A stretch of DNA of 64,000 nt from NCBI RefSeq assembly GCF_900110115.1, contig NZ_FOCM01000009.1, positions 5,001 through 69,000 on the forward strand. The letters are read 5' to 3'. The notes under the pieces were generated by a model that was not told the origin of the DNA, did not search any database, and saw only the letters and a list, made by a program, of their open reading frames with translations. This document shows positions 10,084-28,963 of this stretch, piece by piece (the first letter of the stretch is position 1; each line of letters starts with the position of its first letter). Origin of the DNA: Palleronia pelagia. GTDB lineage: Bacteria > Pseudomonadota > Alphaproteobacteria > Rhodobacterales > Rhodobacteraceae. The position numbers and the translations under genes are program-made.

Positions 10084-10160
10084 TTTTGATCCATACAATG
10101 TATTTTTATTTAGGTCCTTGGCGCTTTACCCCGACCGAAATTCCACCGTGGAGGATTTCT

Positions 10161-11720: not shown

Positions 11721-14080
11721 ACGCGCCTATGAACTGGCCCGGCCAGACCCTCGAACTCTTCGCCTCTGCGGAAGAGGCCATGCGGCAGATCCCCCCGGCC
11801 TTCCCGCTCGATGCAACGGTCGCGGTCAATCCCTGGCTGGGCCAGGCAGGCGAGGATCGTCGCTTGGCAGCCGTCCGGCTGGCCCGCGTCGGCGGAGGCC
11901 GCATGTTCCTGCCGCGCGAGGCCGTGGCCGCGATGATCGCGGCGGGCGACATTACGGCCGAGGACATCGGCGCAGCCGCCACGGCGCATCGTCTCGCGCC
12001 CGATGATCTGCGCCGCGCCGCGACCGCCCGGGCGCCAGCCCCCAGGGTGTTGGCCACAGTGGCGGACCTTGCGCAAAGGGCCGACGGTGTCGACTGGCCG
12101 GCGCTGGTGGAGGAGCGGATCGGCCTCTGGGCCGCGGCGCAGTTCGACCAAGGCCAGGCTTTCTGGCCAGCCCCCGACTGCGGCGCCTGGGCGGGCTGGC
12201 GCGCATTTGCCAGCCGCGACCTGACGCCTGAGATCGCGGGGCTGCCGGGCTTCGCGGCGCGGGTAGCAGCGATGCCATCCGATCCGCGCGCGGCCTTTGC
12301 CGAAGCCTGCGCGTCATTGGGCCTCACAGCGGAGGCCGCGCCGCTCTACTTCCACCGGCTGCTCGTCACGCTCTCCGGCTGGGCGCAATATGCCCGTCAT
12401 CTTCACTGGACGGCAGAGCGCGACGGTAACCGCGACAACACGCTGTTCGAGCTTCTGACCGTCCGCCTGACTTGGGAGGCCCTGCTGCTGGAGACGGGCA
12501 AGGCCCCCTTGGAGGAATGGGAGCAGGCCCGCGCCGAATGCGTCCTGCCAGTGACACTCGACCGGGAAATGGCCCTCGATGCCGCGCTTCAGGAGGCTTA
12601 TGACCGCAGCGTGGAGCGTCGGCTCTCCTGCCAACTCTCGCGGGAGGCAGAGAGGGGCCCTGAGACCTCCCCGGCGGTTCAGGCGGCATTCTGTATCGAC
12701 GTGCGCTCCGAGCGGCTGCGCCGCGCGCTCGAAGCGTCCGATCCGCAGATCCGCACCATCGGCTTCGCTGGCTTCTTCGGCCTCCCACTCGGCCATCGCG
12801 GCCACGCCTCGGACATCGTCGAAGCGCGCGCCCCGGTGCTATTGAGCCCCGGAATCGAGACCCGCGCCGCAGACGAGGCGGGGCGCGACGCCGGTGACCG
12901 TGTCAGGCTGCGGACCAGCCGCGCCTGGGGCCGGTTCAAGCGCGCCGCAGTCTCGGCCTTCGCCTTCGTGGAGGCGGCGGGGCCGCTTTACGTGGCCAAG
13001 CTCGTGCGCGACAGCCTTTGCCTCGCGATGCCCTCGCGACCCGATCCGGCGCCGGTGCTGGACCTGCCGCTGTCGGAGCGTGTCGCGGCCACCGAAGGCG
13101 CGCTTCGGGCGATGTCGCTGACCGAAGGCTTCTCTCCTCTGGTGCTGGTCTGCGGTCACGGCGCGACGGTGACCAACGCTCCCCATGCCAGCGCGCTGCA
13201 ATGCGGCGCTTGTGGGGGCCATGCCGGTGACGTCAATGCGCGGCTTCTGGCGGCTTTGCTGAACGAGACCGACGTGCGGGCCGGGCTACGGGCAAAGGGG
13301 ATCACGATCCCCGAGGAAACATATTTCCTCGCCGGTCTGCACGACACGGTGTCCGACACGGTGCGGCTGTTCGACGAGGCGCTGCCGGCGCGCCGCCGGG
13401 CCGAGGTGGAGCGGCTGCGCACCGCTCTGGCTAAAGCAGGCCTCCTGACCCGGACGGAGCGCGCTCAGAGCTTGCCCCACGGGTCGGAAGCGGGTCTGGT
13501 CAGCCGGGGTCGGGACTGGTCCGAGGTGCGGCCGGAATGGGGGCTGGCCGGTTGTCGCGGCTTTGTCGCCGCGCCGCGGGCGCGGACGGCCGGGCAGGAT
13601 CTCGGCGGCACCGTCTTTCTGCATGATTACGACTGGCGGCAGGACGAGGGCGCCGCGACGGTGGAGCTGATCCTCAGCGCCCCGGTCGTCGTCGCGAGCT
13701 GGATCGCCCTGCAATACCACGGCTCGGCCATTGCGCCCGAGACCTTCGGCGCCGGCAACAAGCTTCTGCATAACGTTGTTGGGGGCATCGGGGTGCTGGA
13801 AGGCAACAATGGGCCGCTGCGCGCGGGACTACCCTGGCAATCGGTGCACGATGGGCAGGCTTTGCGGCACGTGCCGAGCCGGCTTGTGGTGGCGGTGGAG
13901 GCACCTGAAGAAATGATCTCGTGCGTGCTCGACCGTCGGCCTGACGTCCGGGCGCTCTTCGACAACGGCTGGCTGACATTGCTGTCTCTGAACACCGCCG
14001 GGTCCGGCGTTCGCCGCTACCAGGATGGGGCCTGGGTGGCCAAGCCGCTGGACGAGGCGACGCTTCGGGCCGCGGCATGA
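11717..14080 (+). CDS. dabA: DabA, DUF2309 carbonic-anhydrase-like subunit
   Basis: 787 residues, DUF2309/UPF0753. All four zinc ligands known from Halothiobacillus DabA are recognisable: C326 and D328 (FCIDVRSE), H481 (CGHGATVTNAPH) and C496 (QCGACGGHAGD). The 15-residue spacing of the last two is preserved. It is peripheral, with no clear membrane segment, and works with DabB to turn CO2 into trapped bicarbonate. ATGA overlap with dabB indicates coupled translation. No RuBisCO or carboxysome genes are in view, so here it may feed anaplerotic carboxylases or pH control rather than autotrophy (inference). Confidence 0.93.
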   Translation: MNAPMNWPGQTLELFASAEEAMRQIPPAFPLDATVAVNPWLGQAGEDRRLAAVRLARVGGGRMFLPREAVAAMIAAGDITAEDIGAAATAHRLAPDDLRRAATARAPAPRVLATVADLAQRADGVDWPALVEERIGLWAAAQFDQGQAFWPAPDCGAWAGWRAFASRDLTPEIAGLPGFAARVAAMPSDPRAAFAEACASLGLTAEAAPLYFHRLLVTLSGWAQYARHLHWTAERDGNRDNTLFELLTVRLTWEALLLETGKAPLEEWEQARAECVLPVTLDREMALDAALQEAYDRSVERRLSCQLSREAERGPETSPAVQAAFCIDVRSERLRRALEASDPQIRTIGFAGFFGLPLGHRGHASDIVEARAPVLLSPGIETRAADEAGRDAGDRVRLRTSRAWGRFKRAAVSAFAFVEAAGPLYVAKLVRDSLCLAMPSRPDPAPVLDLPLSERVAATEGALRAMSLTEGFSPLVLVCGHGATVTNAPHASALQCGACGGHAGDVNARLLAALLNETDVRAGLRAKGITIPEETYFLAGLHDTVSDTVRLFDEALPARRRAEVERLRTALAKAGLLTRTERAQSLPHGSEAGLVSRGRDWSEVRPEWGLAGCRGFVAAPRARTAGQDLGGTVFLHDYDWRQDEGAATVELILSAPVVVASWIALQYHGSAIAPETFGAGNKLLHNVVGGIGVLEGNNGPLRAGLPWQSVHDGQALRHVPSRLVVAVEAPEEMISCVLDRRPDVRALFDNGWLTLLSLNTAGSGVRRYQDGAWVAKPLDEATLRAAA

Positions 14081-14825: not shown

Positions 14826-15416
14826 CTATTCATCGAGGCTGATATCGCTGAGCTGCAAGGGCTCAAGTCGTTGCGTGCTGTCGACGATCTTCTCCATGGC
14901 CGTGCTGAAGGTGCTGGCCAGGCCCAGGAACAGGATACCAGCGGCAACCTTGGCGAGCGCCCGCAAACGACCGGTGGTCGGTCGCGTCGCGACGCGATCA
15001 GCCTTCAACGGCGGCTTGAGCATCAACCAGATATTCACGACGGGAACGTAGGCCAGGAAGAACCGGCCAGGATGGCCCCATCCGTCACGTGAGCGGCGCA
15101 TCGCAACGATGCCGAAAACATACCCGATCCCGATCGGAGAGATCAGGTCCCAGATCACAAGGGCTTCGATCACGCCAGAGGACGCAGAAGAGTCCACCAG
15201 GAACCACGGCAGCTGCGCCGCAACGACCGCGATGAAGAACAGGCCCGTACAAGCAATGTAGTACGAGCGGCCGATGGCTGCGCTTGTCTTGCTTTCACGG
15301 GGAAGCGCGATGAGACCGCCGACATAGGCAAGGCCCAGGGCCAGGAATCACGTCCCTTCCCTCGGCAAATCCAGATACCACCAAGCCAATTCTTCGAACA
15401 CGTCGGGTCCTTGCTG
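14826..15416 (-). pseudogene. Membrane-protein gene with in-frame stop
   Basis: On the minus strand one frame reads VFEELAWWYLDLPREGT, then TGA at 15350-15348, then FLALGLAYVGGLIALPRE, on through a hydrophobic segment ending in LPWFLVD and further segments to a stop at 14826. Related proteins of this family, as I recall them, have tryptophan where the TGA stands, so a TGG-to-TGA change fits. No ATG exists upstream before a TAA at 15417-15419. The downstream part (123 residues from a GTG at 15197, with IWDLISPIGIGYVFGIVAMRRS) could still be made, but would lack the first membrane segments. Function unknown. Confidence 0.6.
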
Positions 15417-15419
15417 TTA

Positions 15420-15776
15420 TTCCTCGAAACGCCAACACAAATTGGCGATCGAATTGGGTCCAATCGTTCACGTCGCCGCCGACCCGCGCATACCTCGATG
15501 CAGCGTCCGGTGCGGGTTTCGAGACTTCGTCACGCCGGAGCGTCGCACCGGATTGTTGCAAGTCGGCGGCGCAAACGGGGCATCAAAGCGGTAATGCAGG
15601 CATCCCGCCATGCGTCCCGGCCCTTGCAACACGGGATGGCGAGGCGTCTCGCGGACGGTTTTGCCGCAAAGACGCCCATTCTTCGCATTGCCGTGTGAAA
15701 GGGCGGCGTCGCGTGGAACCGCATCGCGGGGTTACGCGCTGTTTTGTCGCACGTCCTGTTTATGAGGAGGCACGCG
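15420..15776. other. Intergenic region before the respiratory module
   Basis: No gene or clear repeat is visible. The last 40 bp form the leader of the small membrane-protein gene, with GAGGAGG at 15764-15770. A promoter for the downstream operon probably lies here, but I cannot point to convincing -35/-10 boxes. Confidence 0.4.
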
Positions 15777-16136
15777 ATGACCAATCGTTTCTCAGGCCGG
15801 AGGCGCCTCGGCTCGAGCATCACCGCGATTGCGGCGCTGTCTGCCGCGCTATTCGCCTTCAATCTTTACGTGACGCCGCTGACCGGTGTCACCGGAACAT
15901 CCGGTGCGCTGCTGGTGATGCTCGGCTGTATCCTAATCGCTGTTGGGGCGCTGTTCATGGCGGTCACGGGGCGTAGAGGATGGCGCTGGCTCACTATTCT
16001 CGGCGTGCTCGGCACGGCCGTCGCCGCGTTCTTCCTACACGGCTGGTGGATCCTTCTCTTGCTGGCGGTCGCCTTCGTCGGCATCGCAATCGACGCTGTC
16101 GGCGCGGGCATGGAACGCACGGAGGTGACGGCATGA
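15777..16136 (+). CDS. Small membrane protein, first gene of the PQQ/oxidase module
   Basis: 119 residues with three or four hydrophobic helices (ITAIAALSAALFAFNLYV, ALLVMLGCILIAVGALFMAV, WLTILGVLGTAVAAFFL, ILLLLAVAFVGIAI). The start at 15777 is fixed by GAGGAGG 6 nt upstream; the earlier ATG at 15762 lies within that site. It overlaps the PQQ dehydrogenase by 4 nt. Soluble glucose-dehydrogenase-like PQQ enzymes often need a membrane anchor, and membrane GDH has five N-terminal helices that the next gene lacks. This protein may replace that anchor (inference). Confidence 0.7.
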   Translation: MTNRFSGRRRLGSSITAIAALSAALFAFNLYVTPLTGVTGTSGALLVMLGCILIAVGALFMAVTGRRGWRWLTILGVLGTAVAAFFLHGWWILLLLAVAFVGIAIDAVGAGMERTEVTA

Positions 16137-18148
16137 CCTTTACTGGAAACTTGAACCGAGTGATGTCGCTTTCGGTGGTTTGCCTGGCGACCGCTGCCCA
16201 GGCGCAGCAGACCACGACGGACGGCTCGACGGCGCAAGATGCGGCTCCTTCCACCCAGTCGCAATCCCAGGCCGCCGAAAGGCAACCCGTTCCGCTGGTC
16301 CCGGATGAGCCGACATGGACCGGCTTCCACGGACAGCTCAACGCGCAGAAATATTCGCCGCTGGACCAGATCACGACCGAGAACGTGGGGCGGCTCGAGA
16401 AGGCGTGGGAGGTCTTCACCGGCGACGTGTCCGATGGAACGGGCGACCTGCCGGGGACCGTCTGGTCGGCCACGCCGATCTATGCCAACGGGATGCTTTA
16501 TATCGGCACGCCCTTCTACCGCGTGCTGGCGCTCGACCCGGCGACGGGCGAGGAGGTCTGGAGCTTCGACTCCCAAAGCACGCTCGAGGCCCTGACGCAG
16601 CCCGCGCTGAAGAACCGGGGTGTGTCCTACTGGGAGGCCGAGAATCCGGTGGATGGCGAGGCGTGCCAGAAGATCATCTATCTCGGCACCATGGACGCCC
16701 AGCTTTTCGCGATGGACGCGGATACCGGCGCCTTGTGCGAAAGCTTCGGCGACGGCGGCGCGCTTGACGTCAACCAGTGGAACGACACCAACGATCGCTG
16801 GCCCCTGTCGCTGCTCCAGCCGCCCACCATCGTCGGCGACCATGTCGTGATCGGCTGGGCCGGCATGGATTGGGAGTGGTCCGAAGCGCCGCCCGGAACG
16901 GTCTTTTCCGTAGATCCGCAGACGGGCGAGCTGCAATGGACCGTGGACCTGTTGCCGGAAGAGGTGCGCCTGCGCACCGGCACGGCGAATGTCTGGACCG
17001 CGATGAGCGCCGACGAGGAACTGGGCCTCGTCTACCTTCCCGTCTCGTCGCCCTCGCCGAACTACTGGGGCGGCAACCGGGTCGAGGAGATCCCGCTTGC
17101 CACGTCCACAACGGCCGTCGATGTCGAGACCGGCGAAGTTGTCTGGTCCTATCAATACGTCAAGCACGACGTCTGGGACTACGACACCAACTCCGCCCCC
17201 ACGCTGATGGACATCACCGTCGACGGCGAGGAGATCCCCGCGCTGCTGCAGGCCAGCAAGATGGGACTTCTCTGGGCGCTCAACCGCGAGACCGGCGAGC
17301 CGATCTGGCCCGTGGAGGAGCTGGAGGTTCCGACCGACACAGATATCGAGGGTGAGGTCCTGCCCGCGACGCAACCGGTGCCGACCCGGCCCGAGCCGGT
17401 CGTCGACCTGCGCAACCGCCCGGATGTCTGGTGGATCGCGGATCTCGTCTCACTCGGAAACTGCTCGCGCATTTTCGACAATGCCCGCTACGACGGGATC
17501 TACACACCGATGACGACCGAGGGCACCGGGACGCTGGTCTACCCGGCGACCTTCGGCGGCCAGCAATGGGGTGGCATCGGGTATGATCCTGAAAATCAGG
17601 TTGCCATCGTGAACTCGTCGCGCGCCGTGCAGATGCTCAAGATGTACCCCCGCGAGGAATACGAGCGTATCGCGGGCAGCTCGGGCAACGAGACGGGGTT
17701 CTACCCGCAGCACAACGCGCCCTACGGGTTCGAGCTCTACATCCCGCTCAACTGGCTTGGCATGCCATGTTGGGAGCCGCCTTACGGCGATATCCGCGCG
17801 ATCGACATGACCACGGGCGAAACGCTGTGGTCCCGCCCCATGGGGGCATCGCAGAAATACGGGTTCTACATGCCCGAGTTCATGGGCTCGCCAACCATCG
17901 GCGGGCCGGCGGTCACGGCCGGCGGGCTGATCTTCATCGGCGCCTCCATGGACGCCAAGGTGCGCGCCTACTCGGTCGAGACGGGCGAAGAGCTGTGGGA
18001 GGATACCGTCATGGCGCCGGCCGTCTCGAACCCGGCCGTCTACGAGCACGAGGGCCGCCAATACGTGGCTTTCACCGCCGGCGGCAACTCGATCATCAAG
18101 GACCAGGTCGGTGACCACCTCGCGGTCTACGCCCTTCCCGAAGAATGA
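16133..18148 (+). CDS. PQQ-dependent dehydrogenase (glucose/quinate dehydrogenase-like)
   Basis: 671 residues with a signal peptide (cleavage near AAQAQQ, ~26), then an eight-bladed propeller with tryptophan docking motifs (VLALDPATGEEVWSFD, YSVETGEELWEDT). Segments CQKIIYLGTMDAQLFAMDADTGALC, HDVWDYDTNSAPTLMDI and GGPAVTAGGLIFIGASMDAKVRAY follow membrane glucose/quinate dehydrogenase rather than methanol dehydrogenase. The vicinal Cys-Cys of the latter is absent. It oxidises an alcohol or sugar in the periplasm; the natural substrate is unknown. The start is set by GGAGG and the ATGA overlap. No PQQ synthesis genes are in the window. Confidence 0.85.
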   Translation: MTFTGNLNRVMSLSVVCLATAAQAQQTTTDGSTAQDAAPSTQSQSQAAERQPVPLVPDEPTWTGFHGQLNAQKYSPLDQITTENVGRLEKAWEVFTGDVSDGTGDLPGTVWSATPIYANGMLYIGTPFYRVLALDPATGEEVWSFDSQSTLEALTQPALKNRGVSYWEAENPVDGEACQKIIYLGTMDAQLFAMDADTGALCESFGDGGALDVNQWNDTNDRWPLSLLQPPTIVGDHVVIGWAGMDWEWSEAPPGTVFSVDPQTGELQWTVDLLPEEVRLRTGTANVWTAMSADEELGLVYLPVSSPSPNYWGGNRVEEIPLATSTTAVDVETGEVVWSYQYVKHDVWDYDTNSAPTLMDITVDGEEIPALLQASKMGLLWALNRETGEPIWPVEELEVPTDTDIEGEVLPATQPVPTRPEPVVDLRNRPDVWWIADLVSLGNCSRIFDNARYDGIYTPMTTEGTGTLVYPATFGGQQWGGIGYDPENQVAIVNSSRAVQMLKMYPREEYERIAGSSGNETGFYPQHNAPYGFELYIPLNWLGMPCWEPPYGDIRAIDMTTGETLWSRPMGASQKYGFYMPEFMGSPTIGGPAVTAGGLIFIGASMDAKVRAYSVETGEELWEDTVMAPAVSNPAVYEHEGRQYVAFTAGGNSIIKDQVGDHLAVYALPEE

Positions 18149-18915
18149 GCGTTAGCCCGGACGACCGTGCCAACGCGGGGAAGGTCGCGCTCGTCACCGG
18201 GGCGTCTCGCGGGCTCGGGGCCGAGATCGCACGGACGCTGGGTCGCGACGGCTGGTCGGTCGCCGTGAACTATCGCAGCGACGGCGCGGGCGCGGACGCC
18301 GTCGCGGCGGATATCAGGTCAGACGGCGGCAGCGCGTCGAAGGTGCAGTTCGACGTGCTCGATCCCGACGCGATCGAGACTGGCCTGGCCGAGATCGCCG
18401 GGACGCTCGGACCTGTGGACCTGCTAGTGAACAACGCGACCGGCCCGCAGCCCGAGAAACCGATCGAGGAGCAGGAGTGGTCTGACTACGAGGCGCAACT
18501 TGCCTTCTTCGTCCACGCGCCTCTGCTTTTGATGCAGGCGTGTCTGGGCGACTGGAGGCGGCGCGGCAGCGGACGCATCGTCAATATCGGGTCGGAGGCG
18601 GCGCATGTGGGCCCACCCGAGCTTGCGCATTATGCCACGGCGAAAAGCGCGATGATCGGCCTGAGCCGCTCGTGGGCCAACGCGCTCGGAGGCGACGGAA
18701 TAACCGTGAACCTCGTCGAGCCGGGCTTCGCGCCGGTCGAGCGTCACGCCGATGTGTCCGAAGCCGAACGCGCGGCCCACGCCGAGCAAATTCCGCTTGG
18801 TCGGCTGGCCAAGCCCTCCGACATCGCCGGCGTGGTCGCGTTCCTCGCCTCGCCCCGCGCGGATTTCGTGACCGGCCAGCGCATCCTCGTGGATGGCGGA
18901 TTGCGGTTCACATGA
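18145..18915 (+). CDS. Short-chain dehydrogenase/reductase
   Basis: 256 residues, classical SDR: TGASRGLG cofactor loop at ~20-27, NNATG at ~94, serine in NIGSEAA, catalytic YATAK and a C-terminal GQRILVDGG. NNAG is altered to NNAT, which is tolerated in some members. It is cytoplasmic and NAD(P)-dependent. The 4-nt overlap with the PQQ dehydrogenase suggests it processes the same substrate family after uptake (inference). A 257-bp gap follows before coxB, with no gene recognised; a 42-codon frame overlapping the stop is not convincing. Confidence 0.85.
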   Translation: MSVSPDDRANAGKVALVTGASRGLGAEIARTLGRDGWSVAVNYRSDGAGADAVAADIRSDGGSASKVQFDVLDPDAIETGLAEIAGTLGPVDLLVNNATGPQPEKPIEEQEWSDYEAQLAFFVHAPLLLMQACLGDWRRRGSGRIVNIGSEAAHVGPPELAHYATAKSAMIGLSRSWANALGGDGITVNLVEPGFAPVERHADVSEAERAAHAEQIPLGRLAKPSDIAGVVAFLASPRADFVTGQRILVDGGLRFT

Positions 18916-19172
18916 GGGTGCGGGGTGAGGCGCATCGCACGATGGTTCGATTTTTAGGCGCGCCTGCCAAGGACATTCCCGTGGATCCGCATCGCGGCGT
19001 CCACGACCCGGTCAGACGCGGTAGGCCGCGGCGTCAATGATGACGGGGAACCAACATTGCCCCGGGGCTGTTGGCCATCGGGTGGCCGGACCAGATCCGA
19101 GCGCTCGCGCCCGAGAGCGGAGTCATTCATGGTCGTAGCAGAGTGCTACCCTTCATCCTGCGCTGGCGCTTC

Positions 19173-20150
19173 GTGAAGCGGCTGTTTGCAGGCCTCGTTC
19201 CGGTCGTGGCGCTCTCGGGGTGCAGCGGCCGTCAGTCCATCCTGGACCCGGCCGGACAGGACTCCGCCTCGCTGCTGACCCTGTTCTGGGTCATGCTGGC
19301 CGGCTTGGTTGTCATCTGGTTGCTCATCAACGGGATGATGTTCTTCTTCCACCACCTGAGCCCGCGGAAATACGACGAGTCCATCGCCCGCAAACTGATC
19401 GTGGGCGGGGGCATCGTATTTCCGACGGTCGTTATCGCGGCCCTGCTTGCATGGGGCCTGTCGATGATGCCCGATCAGCGGGCGCCGGGCGACGGCCTGC
19501 GCGTCGAGATCGTCGGCGAACAATGGTGGTGGCGGGTCGCCTACTGGCCCGACGGCGCGGACGAGCCGATCGTCTCGGCCAACGAGATCAGGCTTCCCGT
19601 CGGACGCAGGTCCACCTTCGAGCTGAGCAGCGCCGCCGTCATCCACTCGCTGTGGATCCCGGCGTTGGGCGGCAAGATGGATATGTTCCCGGGCCGCGAG
19701 ACCTTCCTGACGCTGGAGCCCACCGAGGCCGGGACCTTTCGCGGCCAATGCGCGGAGTTCTGCGGCGCCTCCCACGCCCTGATGGCCTTCGAGGTGGTCA
19801 CCATGGACCCCGAGGAGTTCGAGACCTGGCTTGCGGAGGAGGCCGGCCCCGCGCAGTCGCCCGAGGGCGAGGCCGCCATCGAAGGCGCGGATGTCTTCTC
19901 AGCACAGGGCTGCGGCGCGTGCCACACCGTGCGCGGGACCGAAGCGGTGGGGCAGGTCGGCCCCGACCTCACCCACGTGGGCAGCCGGATGAGCCTCGGC
20001 GCGGGCATACTCGCTCCCACGGTCGATAACTTCATCGCCTGGATCGACCATACCGGCGATCTGAAACCGGAGGTCGAGATGCCGGCCTACGACGACCTGC
20101 CCGAGGACGACCTCCTGGCGCTGGCGACCTACCTTGTGGGGCTGAAATGA
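19173..20150 (+). CDS. coxB: Cytochrome c oxidase subunit II with cytochrome c domain
   Basis: 325 residues from a GTG at 19173, chosen because it begins a clean lipoprotein signal (MKRLFAGLVPVVALSGC). Starts at 19143 or further upstream are possible, and no strong ribosome site decides. Two membrane helices precede a cupredoxin domain with the complete CuA set (H in HSLWIP, then CAEFCGASHALM). A C-terminal class I cytochrome c follows (CGACH, distal Met in VEMPAYD). This is the caa3 arrangement, where electrons enter through the tethered heme. It overlaps the subunit I-III gene by 4 nt. Confidence 0.93.
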   Translation: MKRLFAGLVPVVALSGCSGRQSILDPAGQDSASLLTLFWVMLAGLVVIWLLINGMMFFFHHLSPRKYDESIARKLIVGGGIVFPTVVIAALLAWGLSMMPDQRAPGDGLRVEIVGEQWWWRVAYWPDGADEPIVSANEIRLPVGRRSTFELSSAAVIHSLWIPALGGKMDMFPGRETFLTLEPTEAGTFRGQCAEFCGASHALMAFEVVTMDPEEFETWLAEEAGPAQSPEGEAAIEGADVFSAQGCGACHTVRGTEAVGQVGPDLTHVGSRMSLGAGILAPTVDNFIAWIDHTGDLKPEVEMPAYDDLPEDDLLALATYLVGLK

Positions 20151-22735
20151 CCGAGGATCCCTTCGCGAAATATTCCGGCACCAACCGGCCCGAACCGGAA
20201 GGCACGTTCCCCCCCACCGACGAGATGCTGGCGCGCCCGGTCGACACGGAAGAGGAAGCGCGCCGCGCCGACCGCCTGCGCAGGGCCTGGGACGAGCCAA
20301 AGGGATGGGCGTATTTCAGCGCGGTCAACAACGACAAGGTCGGCGCGTGGTATTCGCTGACGGCGCTGTTCTTCATGCTGGCCGCGGGGGTGCTGGCGCT
20401 GTTGATGCGGATCCAGCTCGCCGTGCCCGAGAACGACTTCCTCGACGCTGACCGCTTCAACCAGTTCTTTACCATGCACGGCTCGGCGATGATGTTCCTC
20501 TTCGCCGTGCCCATGTTCGAGGCCATCAGCATCCTCCTGCTTCCGGCGTTCCTGGGGGCGCGCGATCTGCCGTTCCCCCGCCTGTCGTCCTACGGCTTCT
20601 GGTGCTTCGTCATCGGCGGCTGCTTCGTCATGGGCTCGGTCCTGTTCGACGTGGCCCCGCGCGGCGGCTGGTTCATGTACCCGCCGCTCTCGACCGAGGA
20701 CATGGGCATCGGGGCCGATATCTGGCTGCTCGGCCTGTCGTTCATCGAGGTGGCCAGCATCGCGGCTGCGGTCGAACTGATCGTCGGCGTGCTCAAGTGC
20801 CGCCCGCCGGGGATGCGAGTGAACCTTATGCCGCTTTACGCGTGGTACGTGCTGGTCGTGGGGGGGATGATCCTCTTCGCCTTTCCGCCCCTCATCGCGG
20901 GCGACTTCCTGTTCGAGATGGAGCGCTCGTTCGACTGGCCCTTCTTCGACCCCACACGCGGCGGCGACCCGATGCTGTGGCAGCACCTGTTCTGGATCTT
21001 CGGTCACCCCGAGGTCTACATCGTCTTCCTGCCCTCCATCGCCATCGCCGCGATGGTCATCCCGACCGTCGCCCAGCGGCCGATCGTCGGCTATTCCTGG
21101 ATCGTGCTGAGCGCGGTGGGCGTCGGCTTCCTGTCCTTCGGCCTGTGGGTCCACCACATGTTCACCACGGGACTGCCGAACATATCGCTGGGCTTCTTTT
21201 CCGCCGCGTCCGAAGCGGTCGTCATCCCGACCGGCATTCAGCTTTTCGTCTTCGCCGCCACGCTGATGGTGGGCAAGGTGAAGCGATCGCTGCCGATGCT
21301 CTGGATCGCGGGGGCGCTGGCGATCTTCGTGCTGGGCGGATTGACCGGGGTGATGCTGGCCATCGCGCCCTTCAACTGGGCGGTGCACGACACCTATTTC
21401 ATCGTCGCGCACCTGCACTACACGCTGTTCGGAGGGATGATCTTTCCGGTGATGGCGGGGGTCTACTACTTCTACCCGTTCTTCCGCAAAGGCCGGATGA
21501 TGTCCGAGACGCTGGGGCGCTGGTCCTTCTGGCTGATTTTCATCGGCTTCAACCTGACCTTCCTGCCGATGCACTACACAGGCCTGATCGGCATGCCGCG
21601 CCGCGTCTTCACCTACGGCGAGGAGATGGGCTGGGGCTGGCTGAACATGCTCTCCACGGTCGCCAGCTTCGTGATCGCCGCCGGCTTCGCGGTCTTCGTG
21701 TGGGACCTGCTGCGGCCCAAGCGCAACGAGGGCGCATCCCGGCGCAACCCGTGGAATGCCGGCACGCTCGAGTGGTCGCACAATGTCCCCGAAGAGCAAT
21801 GGGGCGTGCGGTCGATCCCGTTCATCACCTCGCGCTACCCGCTCTGGGACCAGCCGAAGATCGTCGAGCGAATGGATGCGGGCCGCTTCTACCTGAGCGA
21901 CACGAAATACGGCTATCGCGAGACGATCGTCACCTCGGTGCTGGACGCCCGGCCCCAGCATGTCCAGCGGGTCACCGGACCCGCCTGGATCACGATGATG
22001 GCGGCCGCGTTCACCGGCGGGGCGTTCATCTTTCCCACCTTCTCGATGTACGTGCCCGCCATCATCTCGGGGGCCTTCGCTATCGTCTGCGTCCTATACT
22101 GGCTTTGGACGGCAACCGCGCAGGTCCCGGAAGAGCCGACCAGCGACGTGGGGCTCGGCCTGCGCTTGCCGCGCTATGCGTCGGGGCCCAACGCGCCGGG
22201 ATGGTGGGCGGTCTGGATCACCATGCTGGGTGATGCGACGGCGTTCACCAGCCTCGTCTTCGGCTTCTTCTTCTACTGGACGGCCAGCCCGGACTTCCCG
22301 CCCATGGGCGCGGACCACGCCGGCGGCGCGGCGTTGCTGGCCGCCGCCGTGCTTCTGAGCCTGTCGTGGCTGGCGACGCGCAGCGCGAAGGCCACCAACC
22401 GGCACGGCAACGTGCGGCAGGCACGGATCCTCCTCGCGGTGGGGATGGCCTGCACCGTCGCGGGGGGCGCGGGGCTCTATTTGGCCGTGGCCGACCTCGC
22501 GCCCACCAGCCACGCTTACCCCGCGATCGTCTGTGCGCTCGCGGTCTGGCTGGGCGCGCATCTCGGCCTCGGGCTGATCGCCCAGGGCTATTCTCTCGCG
22601 CGCAGCCTCGCGGGGCACACGACGCCGATCTATGACGCCGACCTGACGAACACGACGCTGCTGTGGCACTTCATCGTGGTGCAGGCCCTCATCACCTCGG
22701 CCGTCATCGGCCTGCTGCCGGGGTGGATGACATGA
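20147..22735 (+). CDS. Fused cytochrome c oxidase subunits I and III
   Basis: 862 residues. Residues ~40-560 are subunit I: FTMHGSAMM (heme a), GHPEVY with H287/E289/Y291, HH at 336-337 for CuB and HDTYFIVAHLHY for the hemes. Residues ~650-862 are a five-helix subunit III. The D-channel entrance acid is present (D140) but its paired asparagine is Ser147. At the K-channel position, 28 residues after the second CuB histidine, glutamine (Q365) replaces the near-universal lysine, and Val368 replaces the K-channel serine. It lies within the coxB-ctaG-cytochrome run, all with ATGA overlaps. It is an alternative terminal oxidase; the main aa3 genes are presumably elsewhere. Confidence 0.92.
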   Translation: MTEDPFAKYSGTNRPEPEGTFPPTDEMLARPVDTEEEARRADRLRRAWDEPKGWAYFSAVNNDKVGAWYSLTALFFMLAAGVLALLMRIQLAVPENDFLDADRFNQFFTMHGSAMMFLFAVPMFEAISILLLPAFLGARDLPFPRLSSYGFWCFVIGGCFVMGSVLFDVAPRGGWFMYPPLSTEDMGIGADIWLLGLSFIEVASIAAAVELIVGVLKCRPPGMRVNLMPLYAWYVLVVGGMILFAFPPLIAGDFLFEMERSFDWPFFDPTRGGDPMLWQHLFWIFGHPEVYIVFLPSIAIAAMVIPTVAQRPIVGYSWIVLSAVGVGFLSFGLWVHHMFTTGLPNISLGFFSAASEAVVIPTGIQLFVFAATLMVGKVKRSLPMLWIAGALAIFVLGGLTGVMLAIAPFNWAVHDTYFIVAHLHYTLFGGMIFPVMAGVYYFYPFFRKGRMMSETLGRWSFWLIFIGFNLTFLPMHYTGLIGMPRRVFTYGEEMGWGWLNMLSTVASFVIAAGFAVFVWDLLRPKRNEGASRRNPWNAGTLEWSHNVPEEQWGVRSIPFITSRYPLWDQPKIVERMDAGRFYLSDTKYGYRETIVTSVLDARPQHVQRVTGPAWITMMAAAFTGGAFIFPTFSMYVPAIISGAFAIVCVLYWLWTATAQVPEEPTSDVGLGLRLPRYASGPNAPGWWAVWITMLGDATAFTSLVFGFFFYWTASPDFPPMGADHAGGAALLAAAVLLSLSWLATRSAKATNRHGNVRQARILLAVGMACTVAGGAGLYLAVADLAPTSHAYPAIVCALAVWLGAHLGLGLIAQGYSLARSLAGHTTPIYDADLTNTTLLWHFIVVQALITSAVIGLLPGWMT

Positions 22736-23124
22736 CCGAGCCCAACGAATTCGGCGTCGGCGTCGGTATCCTGCTGAAGATCACCATCGCGCCGTGGATC
22801 TGGGCGTTCCACTTCGTCATCTCGTACGGGGCGGCAGCGGTTTGGTGCGCGAAGATCGCGCCGGATGCCGATCCCCGCGCGCTGCAACTCGCGCTGATCG
22901 CCCTCACGGTCCTTGCGCTGGTCGGGATCGGGCTCAGCGGCTGGCTGGGCTGGCGCAACTGGACCAAGGGCGGCTACGGCGAGGACGGCGCGGTCCCGGG
23001 CATCGACGACGTGGAAAGCCGCGACCGTTTCCTGGGGCATGTCTCCGTGCTTCTCGCGGTCGTCTCGGCCATTGGCGTGGTCTATGTCGTCCTGCCGGTG
23101 CTGCTGGCCGGGTCGTGCCGATGA
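22732..23124 (+). CDS. Small membrane protein of the oxidase cluster
   Basis: 130 residues with three hydrophobic segments: one around IAPWIWAFHFVISYGAAAVWC (~20-40), LIALTVLALVGIGLSGWLGW (~55-75) and VSVLLAVVSAIGVVYVVLPVLL (~103-125). A polar loop GGYGEDGAVPGIDDVESRDRF lies between the last two. I do not recognise a named family. Its place between the fused oxidase and ctaG, with 4-nt overlaps at both ends, suggests a small structural subunit (like subunit IV) or an assembly helper. Confidence 0.7.
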   Translation: MTEPNEFGVGVGILLKITIAPWIWAFHFVISYGAAAVWCAKIAPDADPRALQLALIALTVLALVGIGLSGWLGWRNWTKGGYGEDGAVPGIDDVESRDRFLGHVSVLLAVVSAIGVVYVVLPVLLAGSCR

Positions 23125-23687
23125 ATGTCGCGGCCATCCTCTCCTGCGCGCTTCTGCTGGCGATCTGGGGCCTGCCATGGTCCGACTGGCTGGGCCATTT
23201 CCCGGCGCACATGATCCGGCACATGGGGCTTGTCGCCGTCGTGGCCCCGCTGATCGTTTTGGGGTTTCCACGGCTGGCGGACCCGCTGGCCCTGTCTCCG
23301 CTCGCGGGGGCCGTCCTGGAATTTCTCGTGGTGTGGGGCTTCCACCTTCCCGTCCTGCACGAGGCCGCCATGGCGAGCCCCGTCGCCTTCCTCATCGAAC
23401 AGGCGCTGTTCCTGATCGTCGGGGTCGTCGTCTGGGCGGGATGCGTGCGGACCGGCGGACTGGCCGGGGCGGGCGGGCTGCTGCTTACCTCCATGCACAT
23501 GACGTTGCTGGGCGCGCTGCTGACGCTGTCGCCGCGCGTGATCTATGCGTTGGACCACGCCGGCGCGCTGCAGGAACAACAACTCGGCGGCATGCTGATG
23601 CTGGCCATCGGCACGCCGATCTACCTGATCGCGGGGCTGTGGCTGGTCGCCCGATCCCTTGAAGACACGAAGGACGAGATGGCATGA
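23121..23687 (+). CDS. ctaG: CtaG-type (caa3) cytochrome oxidase assembly protein
   Basis: 188 residues, five or six hydrophobic helices, of the CtaG_caa3 family. It keeps conserved features HMIRHMGLVAVVAPLIVLG, VVWGFHLPVLHEAA and SMHMTLLGALLTLS with the histidine and methionine residues expected in a copper-delivery protein. It is unrelated in fold to Cox11, which is also called CtaG. It overlaps both neighbours by 4 nt. It is needed to assemble the oxidase encoded just upstream. Confidence 0.85.
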   Translation: MNVAAILSCALLLAIWGLPWSDWLGHFPAHMIRHMGLVAVVAPLIVLGFPRLADPLALSPLAGAVLEFLVVWGFHLPVLHEAAMASPVAFLIEQALFLIVGVVVWAGCVRTGGLAGAGGLLLTSMHMTLLGALLTLSPRVIYALDHAGALQEQQLGGMLMLAIGTPIYLIAGLWLVARSLEDTKDEMA

Positions 23688-24760
23688 AACGCGTCCTCCA
23701 GACCCTCGCGACCCTGGCGGTCCTGGCCGCCATTGCCGGAGCCGCGATCGTCTTCGGCGGCCTGTTCAACGTCTCGGCGCGCGCGGGGCACTGGGCGATC
23801 ACGCCGTGGCTGCTGCACACCACGTTTCGCAACTCGGTCGAGCTGCGCGCGCCGGCGCAAAGCGAGGTGCCCGACCTGTCGCGGGACGGCATGGTCGCCC
23901 TTGGCGCCGGGCATTTCGACGAGGGCTGCCGGACCTGCCACGCGGCACCGGGACACCGGCAATCGGCGGTCGCCGCCGCTATGGTGCCGCGGCCGCCCCA
24001 CGTGTCCGAGATAGACCCGTCGTGGAAGCCGAACGAGCTGCACTGGATCGTCGACGAGGGCGTGAAGATGTCGGGCATGCCGCACTGGCCCGCCACGCGC
24101 ACGGACGATGTCTGGCCGGTCGTGGCGTTCCTGATCGAGGTTCGCGACATGACCGGCGCGGAATACGACGATCTCACCGCGCGCCCCGAAGTCCCCGACG
24201 ATGCGCCCGATGGCCTCGCCTATTGCGCGATGTGCCACGGACTGGACGGCCGGAGCGGCAATCAATGGATCCCCCGGCTGGACATCCAGCCGCGGGCCTA
24301 CCTTGAACGGACGTTGCTGGCCTATGCCGACGGCGCGCGCAGCAGCGGCATCATGCACATGGCGGCGTCCCGGTTTCCCGAGACCGACCTCGTGGAACTG
24401 GCCGCGTGGTTCGCCGATCGCGACCCCGTGGCCGACCCGGCGACGCGAAACCTCGACGCGGCCCTGGTCGAGAAGGGCGCGGACCTGGCGTCGCGGGGCA
24501 CGCGGGATGTTCCCGCCTGCACGTCGTGTCACGGTCCGAAAGCCGGTCCACGCGCCGAAGATTTCCCCCGGCTCGCCGGCCAGAGCGAGCGCTACCTCGC
24601 CCAGCAACTGCGCCTTTGGCGTGACGGGGATCGGGGTGGTGCCGCGCGGGCGAACCTGATGGCAAAGTCCGCACAGGATCTGTCCGACGCCGATATTGCG
24701 GCCCTCGCTGCCTACTTCGCCTCTCTATCCGCAGGGGGGGCTGAGGCGGAAGGCGATTGA
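23684..24760 (+). CDS. Triheme cytochrome c
   Basis: 358 residues. An N-terminal helix (~1-30) serves as signal or anchor. Three heme-binding motifs follow: C82-RTC-H, C181-AMC-H and C279-TSC-H. The last two thirds look like a diheme c4-like pair (GRSGNQWIPRLDIQ, GPRAEDFPRLAGQSERYLAQQLRLW). It is in the same overlapping run as the oxidase and is the best candidate for carrying electrons from the PQQ dehydrogenase to subunit II. It resembles the cytochrome subunit of alcohol/gluconate dehydrogenases, which also has three hemes. Confidence 0.87.
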   Translation: MKRVLQTLATLAVLAAIAGAAIVFGGLFNVSARAGHWAITPWLLHTTFRNSVELRAPAQSEVPDLSRDGMVALGAGHFDEGCRTCHAAPGHRQSAVAAAMVPRPPHVSEIDPSWKPNELHWIVDEGVKMSGMPHWPATRTDDVWPVVAFLIEVRDMTGAEYDDLTARPEVPDDAPDGLAYCAMCHGLDGRSGNQWIPRLDIQPRAYLERTLLAYADGARSSGIMHMAASRFPETDLVELAAWFADRDPVADPATRNLDAALVEKGADLASRGTRDVPACTSCHGPKAGPRAEDFPRLAGQSERYLAQQLRLWRDGDRGGAARANLMAKSAQDLSDADIAALAAYFASLSAGGAEAEGD

Positions 24761-26150: not shown

Positions 26151-26534
26151 TCAGTTGCCCTCGACCGGCTTGCGCGCGTCGTCCTGTGGAGTGTCGTAGG
26201 TGGCCCACCGGCCGCCCGTCGGCGGGGGCGGGGGGCTCTTCTGCGAGCTCCGTCCATGGAGGTGGACCTTGGCGATGAAGTTCGCCGTGATCGGTGCGGT
26301 GACGAACAGGAACGCCAGGATCAGCACCTGGTGCAGCGATCCCTCGCCCCGCGCGAAGGCCGCCAGCATGGAGCCGAGCAGAAGCGACCCGACCCCCAGC
26401 GTGCTGGCCTTGGTGGGCGCGTGCAGGCGCGACATGGGCGTGTCCACCTTCAGCAGGCCGATGGACCCGACCAGCGTGAAGAATCCGCCGATGAACAGGC
26501 TGATCGCGGCGGCGATTTCCAGATACTCGGTCAT
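26151..26534 (-). CDS. mrpG: Mrp antiporter subunit G
   Basis: 127 residues, three hydrophobic helices. MnhG/PhaG family: FTLVGSIGLLKVDTPMSRLHAPTKASTLGVGSLLLGSM is the signature. The start at 26534 overlaps the mrpF stop by 4 nt. The proline-rich tail (SPPPPPTGG) is longer than in most relatives. It is the last gene of the six-gene operon for a multi-subunit Na+(K+)/H+ antiporter. Confidence 0.92.
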   Translation of the reverse strand: MTEYLEIAAAISLFIGGFFTLVGSIGLLKVDTPMSRLHAPTKASTLGVGSLLLGSMLAAFARGEGSLHQVLILAFLFVTAPITANFIAKVHLHGRSSQKSPPPPPTGGRWATYDTPQDDARKPVEGN

Positions 26535-26800
26535 TCGATGATGTCCCCGCGCAGCACGAACCGCGCCAGCGCCACGGTCGAGATGAAGCCCAGCATGGCG
26601 ATGATCATGCCGCTTTCGAAATACATCTGCGTGCCCCACTGCACGCCGATCAGCACGATCAGCGCGATGGCGTTGATCACCATGGTGTCCAGCGCGAGGA
26701 TGCGGTCGCCGATATGGGGGCCGCGCATCAGCCGGATCATGGCCATGACCTGCGCGGCGCCCACGGTGACGAAGGCGAAGACAAGGGCGATGTCGATCAT
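26531..26800 (-). CDS. mrpF: Mrp antiporter subunit F
   Basis: 89 residues, three helices, MnhF/PhaF family, with RLMRGPHIGDRILALDTM as the conserved block. The ATG at 26800 overlaps the mrpE stop, and its own stop overlaps mrpG. Confidence 0.92.
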   Translation of the reverse strand: MIDIALVFAFVTVGAAQVMAMIRLMRGPHIGDRILALDTMVINAIALIVLIGVQWGTQMYFESGMIIAMLGFISTVALARFVLRGDIIE

Positions 26801-27285
26801 TCGAAGATCTCCTTCAGCCGGGATTCGTATCGGGACTTGATGTCGTCGCGCACGCCGTCGGGGTCGGGCGCGTCGAGCGCATGCACCAGAAGCGACCGGC
26901 CGTCCTCGGACAGGTCGACGCTGACCGTGCCGGGCGTCAGGGTGATCGTGCCGGCCAGCACCGTGATCGCCTCGGGCGATTTCAGCTCCAGCGGGATCGG
27001 CACCCAGGCGGGCCGGCGCGCGGCATTGGACTTGAACAGGATGATCGCCGCGACGACCACGTTCGCGACGATGATGTCGTAGATCACGATCACGATGTAG
27101 ACGAGCAGCTTGAACGGGTTCGAGATCTTCGGCCGGTCGGGCCAGAAGGCGGCGGTCACGAAGGGGATGATGATCCCGAGGATCGTGCCGAAGACCACGG
27201 TGCCCAGCGTGAAGGCCTGCGACAGCAGGCACCACACCAAGATCAGCGTCAGTGTCAGGAACGGGTGGGGGAACAGCCGTGTCAT
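26797..27285 (-). CDS. mrpE: Mrp antiporter subunit E
   Basis: 162 residues. Two N-terminal helices (ILVWCLLSQAF, VVFGTILGIIIPFV), then VYDI-type segment YDIIVANVVVAAIIL and a cytoplasmic domain (LTPGTVSVDLSEDGRSLLVHALD) characteristic of MnhE. The start at 27285 lies within 5 nt of the mrpD stop, so translation is coupled. Confidence 0.9.
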   Translation of the reverse strand: MTRLFPHPFLTLTLILVWCLLSQAFTLGTVVFGTILGIIIPFVTAAFWPDRPKISNPFKLLVYIVIVIYDIIVANVVVAAIILFKSNAARRPAWVPIPLELKSPEAITVLAGTITLTPGTVSVDLSEDGRSLLVHALDAPDPDGVRDDIKSRYESRLKEIFE

Positions 27286-27286
27286 C

Positions 27287-28963
27287 TCAGTGGCCCTCCG
27301 GATCCGACGTATCGTCCGCGCTGCCGCCATGGGCACCGTCATCACCCTTGCTTTCGCCGTCGCCGTAGCCCTCGTCCCCATGGCCATAGCCCGACAGGTC
27401 CTTGCCTTCGGTGGACATCACCGTGGTGATATAAGGCTCGGGCGCGAAAAGTTGCGCCGCGGTGGCGTCCAGTGTCCGCTTGACCGGCCCCGCCGCCACA
27501 GTCAGGGCCACCAGCCCCGCGATCAGCGCGCCGATGGCCACCATGGGCAGCGCGGCGGGCGACGGCTCGGGGTCGGGGGCGTTGTCCAGGTCGGCCTCGG
27601 CGTCGCGCTCGGTCCCGTCGGCGCGGGTCGCGGCGACCTGGTGGGCCTTCCAGAACACCTGGCTGCCCGCGCGGCCGAAGCCCACGATCGCCACCAGCGA
27701 TGTCGACAGCACCACCGCCCAGACCCAGACGGCCAGCGCGTTGTCCCGCGCCGCGTCCAGCACCAGCAGCTTGCCCACGAAGCCCGACAGCGGAGGCAGC
27801 CCGCACATGGCGATGGCCGCGGCGAAGAACAGGCCTGCGACCAGCGGCCCGCCCATGATCGGTGTGGCGTCCTGCAGGCGCGCGCCGATGCCGCCGCGCC
27901 GCTCGCGCACCGTGTCGACCAGCAGGAACAGCGCCGCGGTCGCCAGGGTCGAATGCAGGGCATAGTAGAGCGCCGCCGAAATGCCGGTCTCGGTGAAGAC
28001 CGACACCGCGATCAGCAGCATCCCCATGGAGCCGATGACCGAGAACGCCACCAGCCGGTCCAGCCGCCGCGCGCCCAGCACGCCCACCATGCCCACGGTC
28101 AGGGTCAGCAGAGCGGCGGGCAGAAGCCACGTGCCGAACAGGCCCTGCGTGATCTCGAGGTCGGGCGGGAAAACCAGCGTGTAGAAGCGGATGATCGAAT
28201 AGGCGCCAACCTTCGTCATGATGGCAAACAGTGCCGCCACCGGACCCGGCGCCTCGGAATAGCTGGCCGGCAGCCAGAAATGCAGCGGCAGCACCGCCGC
28301 CTTCACCGCGAAGACCAGGATCAGCAGAACCGATGCCACCCGGATCCCGGCCGTGGCGTCGGGGCCCATCATCGACACCCGTTCGGCCAGGTCGGCCATG
28401 TTCAGCGTGCCGGTCTCGGCGTAGAGCGTGCCCAGCGCGAACAGGAACAGGGTCGAGCCCAGCAGGTTGTAGAGAACGTACTGCACGCCCGCGCGCAACC
28501 GCTCGGCCCCGCCCGCGTGGATCATCAGGCCATAGCTGGCGATCAGCAGCACCTCGAAGAACACGAACAGGTTGAACGCGTCGCCGGTCAGGAAGGCGCC
28601 GTTGATGCCCATCAGCTGGAACTGGAACAGCGCGTGGAAGTGCCAACCGCGTTTGTCCCAGCCCGACCCGATGGCGTACAGCAGGACCGGCAGCGCCAGC
28701 AGCGATGTGAGCAGCAGCATCAGCGTCGATAGCCGGTCGGTCACCAGCACGATGCCGAAGGGTGCCGTCCAATTGCCCAAAGCGTAGACGTCGATGGTCC
28801 CGTCGCTCGCCCGCCAGAACAGCCCGGCGGCCACCAGGGTCAGCGCGACGGTTCCCGCGACCGAGAACGTCCGTGCCAAATTCATGTGGAATCGGGCGGA
28901 CAGCACGATGATCGCCGCCAGCATGGCGGGCAGCACGACGGGCAGGGTCATCCAGTGGCTCAT
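27287..28963 (-). CDS. mrpD: Mrp antiporter subunit D
   Basis: 558 residues, ~14 helices, proton-conducting antiporter family. FAVKAAVLPLHFWLPASYSEAPGPVAALFAIMTKVG (~225-260) carries the lysine and histidine of the proton path. A charged acidic C-terminal tail (~515-558, rich in D, G, E and H) goes beyond the usual end. It overlaps mrpC by 4 nt. Confidence 0.93.
   Translation of the reverse strand: MSHWMTLPVVLPAMLAAIIVLSARFHMNLARTFSVAGTVALTLVAAGLFWRASDGTIDVYALGNWTAPFGIVLVTDRLSTLMLLLTSLLALPVLLYAIGSGWDKRGWHFHALFQFQLMGINGAFLTGDAFNLFVFFEVLLIASYGLMIHAGGAERLRAGVQYVLYNLLGSTLFLFALGTLYAETGTLNMADLAERVSMMGPDATAGIRVASVLLILVFAVKAAVLPLHFWLPASYSEAPGPVAALFAIMTKVGAYSIIRFYTLVFPPDLEITQGLFGTWLLPAALLTLTVGMVGVLGARRLDRLVAFSVIGSMGMLLIAVSVFTETGISAALYYALHSTLATAALFLLVDTVRERRGGIGARLQDATPIMGGPLVAGLFFAAAIAMCGLPPLSGFVGKLLVLDAARDNALAVWVWAVVLSTSLVAIVGFGRAGSQVFWKAHQVAATRADGTERDAEADLDNAPDPEPSPAALPMVAIGALIAGLVALTVAAGPVKRTLDATAAQLFAPEPYITTVMSTEGKDLSGYGHGDEGYGDGESKGDDGAHGGSADDTSDPEGH

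Follow-up and report, generated by a model that had tools for sequence, protein, structure and literature searches.

A 64,000-nt stretch of the genome of Palleronia pelagia (hereafter the window; G000:C3:5001-69000, from a 3.85-Mb assembly of 25 contigs that is 99.96% complete) carries two separable gene modules in tandem, one built around a pyrroloquinoline quinone (PQQ) dehydrogenase (P1-P3) and the other around a caa3-type cytochrome oxidase (P4-P8, hereafter the block). The eight plus-strand open reading frames (ORFs) occupy positions 15777-24760 as two runs, with an ATGA overlap at every junction within a run (six in total), in the order given by a preliminary description of the region. 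We favour, if not strongly, the reading that the block is a modular caa3 oxidase that has been paired repeatedly with periplasmic dehydrogenases and is coupled to them most likely via ubiquinone and the bc1 complex. The preliminary description had proposed a dedicated chain from substrate to oxygen; a functional link between the halves is indeed likely, given the co-occurrence of the block with PQQ enzymes and the PQQ enzymes found beside the block in other lineages, and a bc1-free chain is not demonstrated.

By conservation the two halves are not one unit, yet the link between them is more than noise. The preliminary description had presented the eight genes as one package. In the best 80 of 200 named relatives of P2, read with flanks of up to 10 kb per side (11 of the 80 stretches being shortened by contig ends), no gene of P4-P8 was found nearby (0/80), and a conserved eight-gene package was therefore rejected; the nearest relative, in Roseivivax halodurans, has no block adjacent in the stretch read. 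For co-occurrence we drew 394 genomes of the family, window excluded, counting as a block an oxidase of at least 58% identity and as a PQQ enzyme a match at 1e-100; scoring was limited to the two or three best candidates in each genome, which makes copy numbers lower bounds. Both were present in 19 genomes against 2.6 expected among 393 (odds ratio 40.7), and they lay within 10 kb of each other in one of these 19 (G261), so that the halves are separate in most genomes examined, which is one half of what the preliminary description had named as refuting its reading. For P2-type enzymes alone, the block was present in 10 of 15 family genomes (odds ratio 40). The control, CyoB-like oxidases with PQQ dehydrogenases, gave an odds ratio of 9.1, with only 16 of its 34 genomes passing the CyoB cut-off. 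A draw of 219 other genomes of the class showed the association again, less strongly: the two were found together in five, where 1.1 would be expected (odds ratio 8.6, P = 0.002). In three of these five, from two genera, the genes are adjacent and on the same strand. Over both draws, four genomes with adjacent genes, three of them independent, compare with 0.15 expected (P about 5e-4); the class draw contributed G591 and also G571, which shares its genus with G120.

The surroundings of the block were then surveyed in 69 loci (28 family genomes and 3 second copies there, 13 class genomes and 1 second copy, 13 plasmid loci, 10 congeners, and L146). The plasmid loci were hand-picked for variety from 275 records, three of them from a nucleotide search, and L145, L146 and L147 were chosen because adjacency was already visible, L145 and L147 also being in the evenly drawn sets. 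Flanks of about 6-9 kb, some cut by contig ends (e.g. L202, L203, L221), were queried with three PQQ proteins, one GMC, one molybdenum-type and one sorbosone-type protein and a short-chain dehydrogenase (SDR), a set that would miss other kinds of enzyme. In nine loci (L145, L146, L147, L171, L175, L181, L184, L198, L199) the block has a PQQ dehydrogenase of the Gcd/P2 superfamily no more than about 3 kb away, and the other 60 have no PQQ neighbour; among the evenly drawn loci the counts are 1/28 for the family and 3/13 for the class. Dehydrogenases of other types adjoin the block in 7/69 loci altogether: a sorbosone-type GSDH protein in four (L177, L182, L183, L205), a molybdenum-type enzyme with a triheme cytochrome in two (L150, L152), and a GMC (flavin adenine dinucleotide, FAD) dehydrogenase with its cytochrome in one (L174). 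None of the dehydrogenases sought stands beside the block in 53/69. In a tree of 48 PQQ proteins, the ten block-adjacent ones (window included) need seven label changes, forced by well-supported branches (a tree that held one gene twice gave 8 changes, with 62/500 shuffles as low). Different PQQ subfamilies have thus joined the block repeatedly and independently, and such repeated assembly with different enzymes speaks for use.

The same picture might arise if the block and the PQQ dehydrogenases were merely accessory cargo of plasmids or islands that meet by hitchhiking, with no working link. Both do occur on plasmids, the genes around the block differ from genome to genome, the PQQ gene may be upstream, downstream or convergent relative to it, and 11 of 500 label shuffles on the tree were as low as seven changes, so that the adjacency label is somewhat clustered. 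Two congeners that have the blocks most similar to that of the window, G008 (P5 85% identical) and G013, lack a P2 match at 1e-100, and PQQ dehydrogenases co-occur with CyoB-like oxidases too. Against such neutral association, however, adjacency is more frequent in the evenly drawn genomes than random placement predicts and is seen again with different PQQ subfamilies, the PQQ gene is on the same strand, upstream or downstream of the block, in several lineages, and co-occurrence is stronger than for CyoB-like oxidases. We regard neutral association as unlikely, though it keeps an appreciable share of our expectation.

Table 1. Features of the tandem dehydrogenase and oxidase modules in the window.
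Feature	Position	Strand	Evidence
P1, 119-aa membrane protein, putative partner of the PQQ dehydrogenase, signature TPLTGVTG	15777..16136	+	25-row alignment; separate upstream gene
P2, PQQ dehydrogenase, 671 aa	16133..18148	+	family scans; alignment with E. coli Gcd
P3, SDR	18145..18915	+	family scans
Junction between the two modules, 256 nt	18916..19171	.	promoter/terminator scan; nucleotide comparison with G008
P4, oxidase subunit II, CuA motif, one C-terminal heme c motif, lipoprotein-like start (LSGC)	19172(GTG)..20150	+	
P5, fused subunit I-III, A1-type heme-copper oxidase, Gln365 at the expected K-channel lysine	20147..22735	+	
P6, 130-aa membrane protein, no family name	22732..23124	+	homologues in other loci
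P7, Caa3_CtaG-type copper assembly factor	23121..23687	+	family scan
P8, triheme cytochrome c, last two domains cytochrome c4-like	23684..24760	+	three CxxCH motifs

Family scans detected a PQQ propeller and an SDR in the first module, and in the second COX1, COX2 with cytochrome c, Caa3_CtaG and further cytochrome c domains. With motifs and profile comparison, the latter bear out the oxidase part of the preliminary description, namely a caa3-type subunit II, a fused subunit I-III, a CtaG factor and a triheme cytochrome. P4 has the CuA ligands and a heme c on subunit II, and P5 combines the fused subunit I-III with GHPEVY, the D-channel Asp and a Caa3_CtaG neighbour, as in the A1-type caa3 oxidases of COX operon subtype a; the A1-type glutamate and the other motifs checked are present as well. 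The C-terminal 303 aa of P5 have no significant Pfam or PDB match, and a 13-row alignment of this part matches three COX3/CyoC proteins with 97.8% probability in profile comparison, so that the subunit I-III fusion is real. In place of the canonical K-channel lysine P5 has Gln365. This Gln is found in all 68 readable fused-oxidase loci of at least 42% identity (55 at 58% or more, 13 at 42-53%), and the position holds Ser in a more distant oxidase (L137, 38% identity) and Lys in the oxidases read in L234 and L236. Nine residues before it, Glu356 is invariant in the 55 closer loci and absent in the 13. K-channel losses in family A oxidases are already published (PMC8239418), so Gln365 does not exclude P5 from family A; it is a feature worth noting, and we claim no discovery.

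The 130-residue membrane protein of the preliminary description, P6, matches no family in Pfam or NCBIfam and is represented by 56 homologues among the 69 loci; P21, W24, H27, F28, Y32, S112 and P122 are invariant in them, and Cys129 is kept in 55/55. It is a conserved protein without a name, with Trp, His and Tyr among its invariant residues and Cys residues that are nearly so. A homologue of P8 is present in every block locus of at least 58% identity read, including those with none of the dehydrogenases sought, and because it accompanies the oxidase there and has cytochrome c4-like domains, P8 looks like the oxidase's own electron donor. Our queries detected no CtaG in seven block loci of at least 58% identity (L175, L185, L200, L216, L217, L220, L227), in two of which (L175 and L185) the annotation shows an assembly protein. 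The genome contains three further COX1 homologues above the cut-off. The block (P5 at 68% identity or more) is found in 10 of 13 congeners examined, with or without P2, the exceptions being G001 and G004, which have none, and G013, which has a broken copy. In G013 (L149, 12701-15088), a close relative whose shared genes are 96-99% identical, an ORF that looks like that of a transposase or integrase splits the gene for subunit I; with its subunit I gene interrupted, this genome was set aside as a witness on the oxidase junction. At the oxidase locus of G008, nucleotide similarity to the window starts only at 19212, so the P3/P4 junction looks lineage-specific. No consensus promoter or terminator was found in 15400-19400, a weak test, as shuffles give 0.4 and 1.9 by chance.

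The glucose/quinate type assigned to P2 in the preliminary description was upheld for the PQQ propeller (Pfam, 612 bits) and not for the family as curated, since P2 scores 526.7 bits against TIGR03074 and the cut-off is 832.65. That profile is matched only from position 114, there being no N-terminal membrane domain in the P2 chain. P2 is 35% identical to E. coli Gcd in alignment and keeps, as Asp349 and Lys376, the catalytic residues Asp466 and Lys493 of Gcd; at the position of Gcd His262 it has Gln, with two residues inserted there. Together these residues suggest that P2 is active with PQQ but acts on something other than glucose. The P2 sequence has no CxxCH motif and no CC pair, and thus neither the heme c domain nor the vicinal cysteine pair of the quinohemoprotein alcohol dehydrogenases that reduce cytochrome c. 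Among named relatives, the nearest organisms by P2 are Roseivivax and Maritimibacter, and P2-type enzymes are also found in Enterobacter, Leclercia and Pantoea.

A separate gene homologous to P1 (E < 1e-3) lies upstream within about 570 nt in 77 of 87 P2-type loci (80 named and 7 whole-genome; L013 and L084 are the same contig, so that the 87 contain at least one duplicate), including three of four Enterobacter loci and Leclercia. The remaining 10 loci have no P1 homologue at this threshold, both Pantoea and Maritimibacter, P2's closest relative but one, being among them, and a P1-P2 fusion was seen in 0/87. Two identities for P1 were tried and rejected. As a split-off Gcd membrane domain it received an hhalign probability of 0.4% and no significant BLASTP match, a weak negative with few, similar sequences. 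As one half of an SldBA-like pair it would be expected to show GGSWYY/WEVG, which we presume to be the motifs of the SldB small subunit; P1 lacks them and the small subunit of S. alexandrii (P0014) has them, SldB itself not having been compared. Among the 80 named relatives, the SDR shows no conserved association with P2-type genes.

In the mechanism that we favour, P1 as membrane partner and P2 as catalytic subunit would together oxidise a sugar or polyol on the outer side of the inner membrane, and the SDR would probably act on the product of P2 or a related compound. The caa3 block would accept electrons at the level of c-type cytochromes, the most likely path leading from the substrate through PQQ, ubiquinone and bc1 to cytochrome c or P8, from there to the heme c of P4 and its CuA, and finally to oxygen. 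Tandem placement would give joint acquisition and probably joint expression, that is, a dehydrogenase together with a high-capacity, low-affinity outlet. The missing CC pair and heme motif and the Gcd-like catalytic residues argue for placing P2 in the quinone-reducing class. To our knowledge, Enterobacter, Leclercia and Pantoea have quinol oxidases only and no cytochrome c oxidase, so their P2-type enzymes should work without one. A review of membrane PQQ enzymes for glucose, glycerol, quinate and inositol describes them as ubiquinone oxidoreductases (PMC9171043). These relatives and the enterobacterial enzymes lead us to put most weight on the ubiquinone/bc1 route, and with the lack of a heme c motif or CC pair in P2 they leave the independence from bc1 claimed in the preliminary description without support.

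In the competing route, that of the preliminary description, P2 would hand its electrons directly to P8, which would feed the oxidase, and neither quinone nor bc1 would take part. The constant presence of a P8 homologue at the block would suit such a chain, as would the dedicated multiheme cytochromes that also go with molybdenum and GMC dehydrogenases beside the block and the lack of a Gcd-type membrane domain in P2. However, P8 homologues also stand where the block has none of the dehydrogenases sought, so that P8 belongs to the oxidase; P2 lacks the heme c motif and CC pair; and in 5 of the 15 other family genomes with P2-type enzymes no block reaches 58% identity, which means that the dehydrogenase can do without one. 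We consider the direct chain improbable. Equally doubtful, in our judgement, is a broader version that sees P4-P8 as a plug-in oxidase, one of a family of caa3 oxidases in which the K channel has been rebuilt and a triheme cytochrome comes with the oxidase. It would be wired again and again to whichever periplasmic dehydrogenase (PQQ, FAD or molybdenum) has been acquired, and would receive its electrons by way of dedicated cytochromes, without bc1. Loss of bc1 has been reported for Acetobacteraceae.

Several points weigh against the repeatedly paired, bc1-coupled oxidase that we favour. Adjacency in the family alone (one block-bearing genome of 28, G261, against 0.12 expected) is not significant (P = 0.11), and the adjacency test was framed after G120 and G261 had been seen. 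The co-occurrence figures ignore phylogeny and lifestyle, and CyoB-like oxidases associate with PQQ dehydrogenases as well; that the orientation varies and that plasmids carry these genes also calls for caution. The bc1 route is putative, and P1 as the quinone-side partner of P2 is a guess, no relation to the Gcd membrane domain having been seen with the few, similar sequences compared.

The chain cannot be called self-contained, as the preliminary description had it. Profile searches found no pqqC in the genome, and the best pqqE match reached 45.8 bits (cut-off 381.35), whereas three congeners (G002, G006, G009) carry both genes; the pqqC cut-off was passed by 16 of 33 genomes tested and the pqqE cut-off by 5 of 19. 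P2 would, on this evidence, depend on PQQ from outside the cell. E. coli Gcd likewise relies on external PQQ. Three further genomes with P2-type enzymes (G010, G055, G031) have neither pqqC nor pqqE above cut-off.

Pairings of this kind have precedents. A fused COX1-3 is typical of COX operon type a, and PQQ dehydrogenases, MxaF relatives for example, are often part of type a-II operons (Degli Esposti 2014; PMC4013037); both types are A1 oxidases of subtype a in a survey from 2019 (PMC6431628). The window resembles them in its fused COX1-3, in the COX2-cytochrome c fusion frequent among them, in the Caa3_CtaG association and in the short hypothetical proteins. Type a-II differs in having an MxaF-related PQQ enzyme and a COX1-COX4 fusion, whereas in the window the PQQ enzyme is related to the membrane glucose family, its small membrane partner is encoded separately, and the neighbouring oxidase carries a COX1-3 fusion. 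The coxMNOP oxidases are likewise alternative cytochrome c oxidases with heme c on subunit II (PMC5492768, PMC4274787), but that of KF707, compared by its published description, has two heme c motifs where P4 has one, and the available parts of those accounts mention no PQQ neighbour. With the membrane PQQ dehydrogenases for glucose, quinate, glycerol or inositol (PMC9171043) the window shares the PQQ propeller, the catalytic Asp and Lys of Gcd and an associated membrane part; it differs from them in the low identity of P2 to Gcd, the signature of P1 and the missed TIGR03074 cut-off. The closest parallel is the plasmid locus L175 of Sulfitobacter sp. OXR-159, with a small membrane protein, a P2-type enzyme (56% identity) and the block on the same strand; in L175, unlike in the window, CtaG precedes subunit II, no SDR lies between the modules, and the P5 homologue is about 61% identical. 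Searches of the open-licence literature found no account of a recurring pairing of the COX1-3 block with glucose-family PQQ dehydrogenases. The case in the window extends a known pairing to relatives of the membrane glucose family and a COX1-3 block, and adds counts.

Another oxidoreductase-oxidase pairing was met in Rhizobium (L237, L238), where the annotation places a cytochrome c and an oxidoreductase of the FdhF/YdeP family immediately upstream of alternative oxidases whose subunit III is separate. Elsewhere in the window, a DabAB-type inorganic carbon transporter adjoins the region at 10086-14080, its DabA gene (784 bits) being overlapped by a 544-aa gene that groups with the window's antiporter-like genes; Mrp-type Na+/H+ antiporter genes (MnhG and Proton_antipo_M matches) lie downstream on the minus strand (26151-28963), and the end of an rRNA operon (3' part of the 23S gene, 5S, tRNA-Met) is at 1-1123.

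Alternative caa3 oxidases of the P4-P8 kind are often without an assigned role. Were the plug-in reading true, periplasmic incomplete oxidation would be a portable respiratory cassette. If the block serves periplasmic dehydrogenases, it would gain a testable role that explains its co-occurrence with PQQ enzymes, and this would suggest that bacteria without PQQ genes use the PQQ of their neighbours for periplasmic sugar or polyol oxidation.

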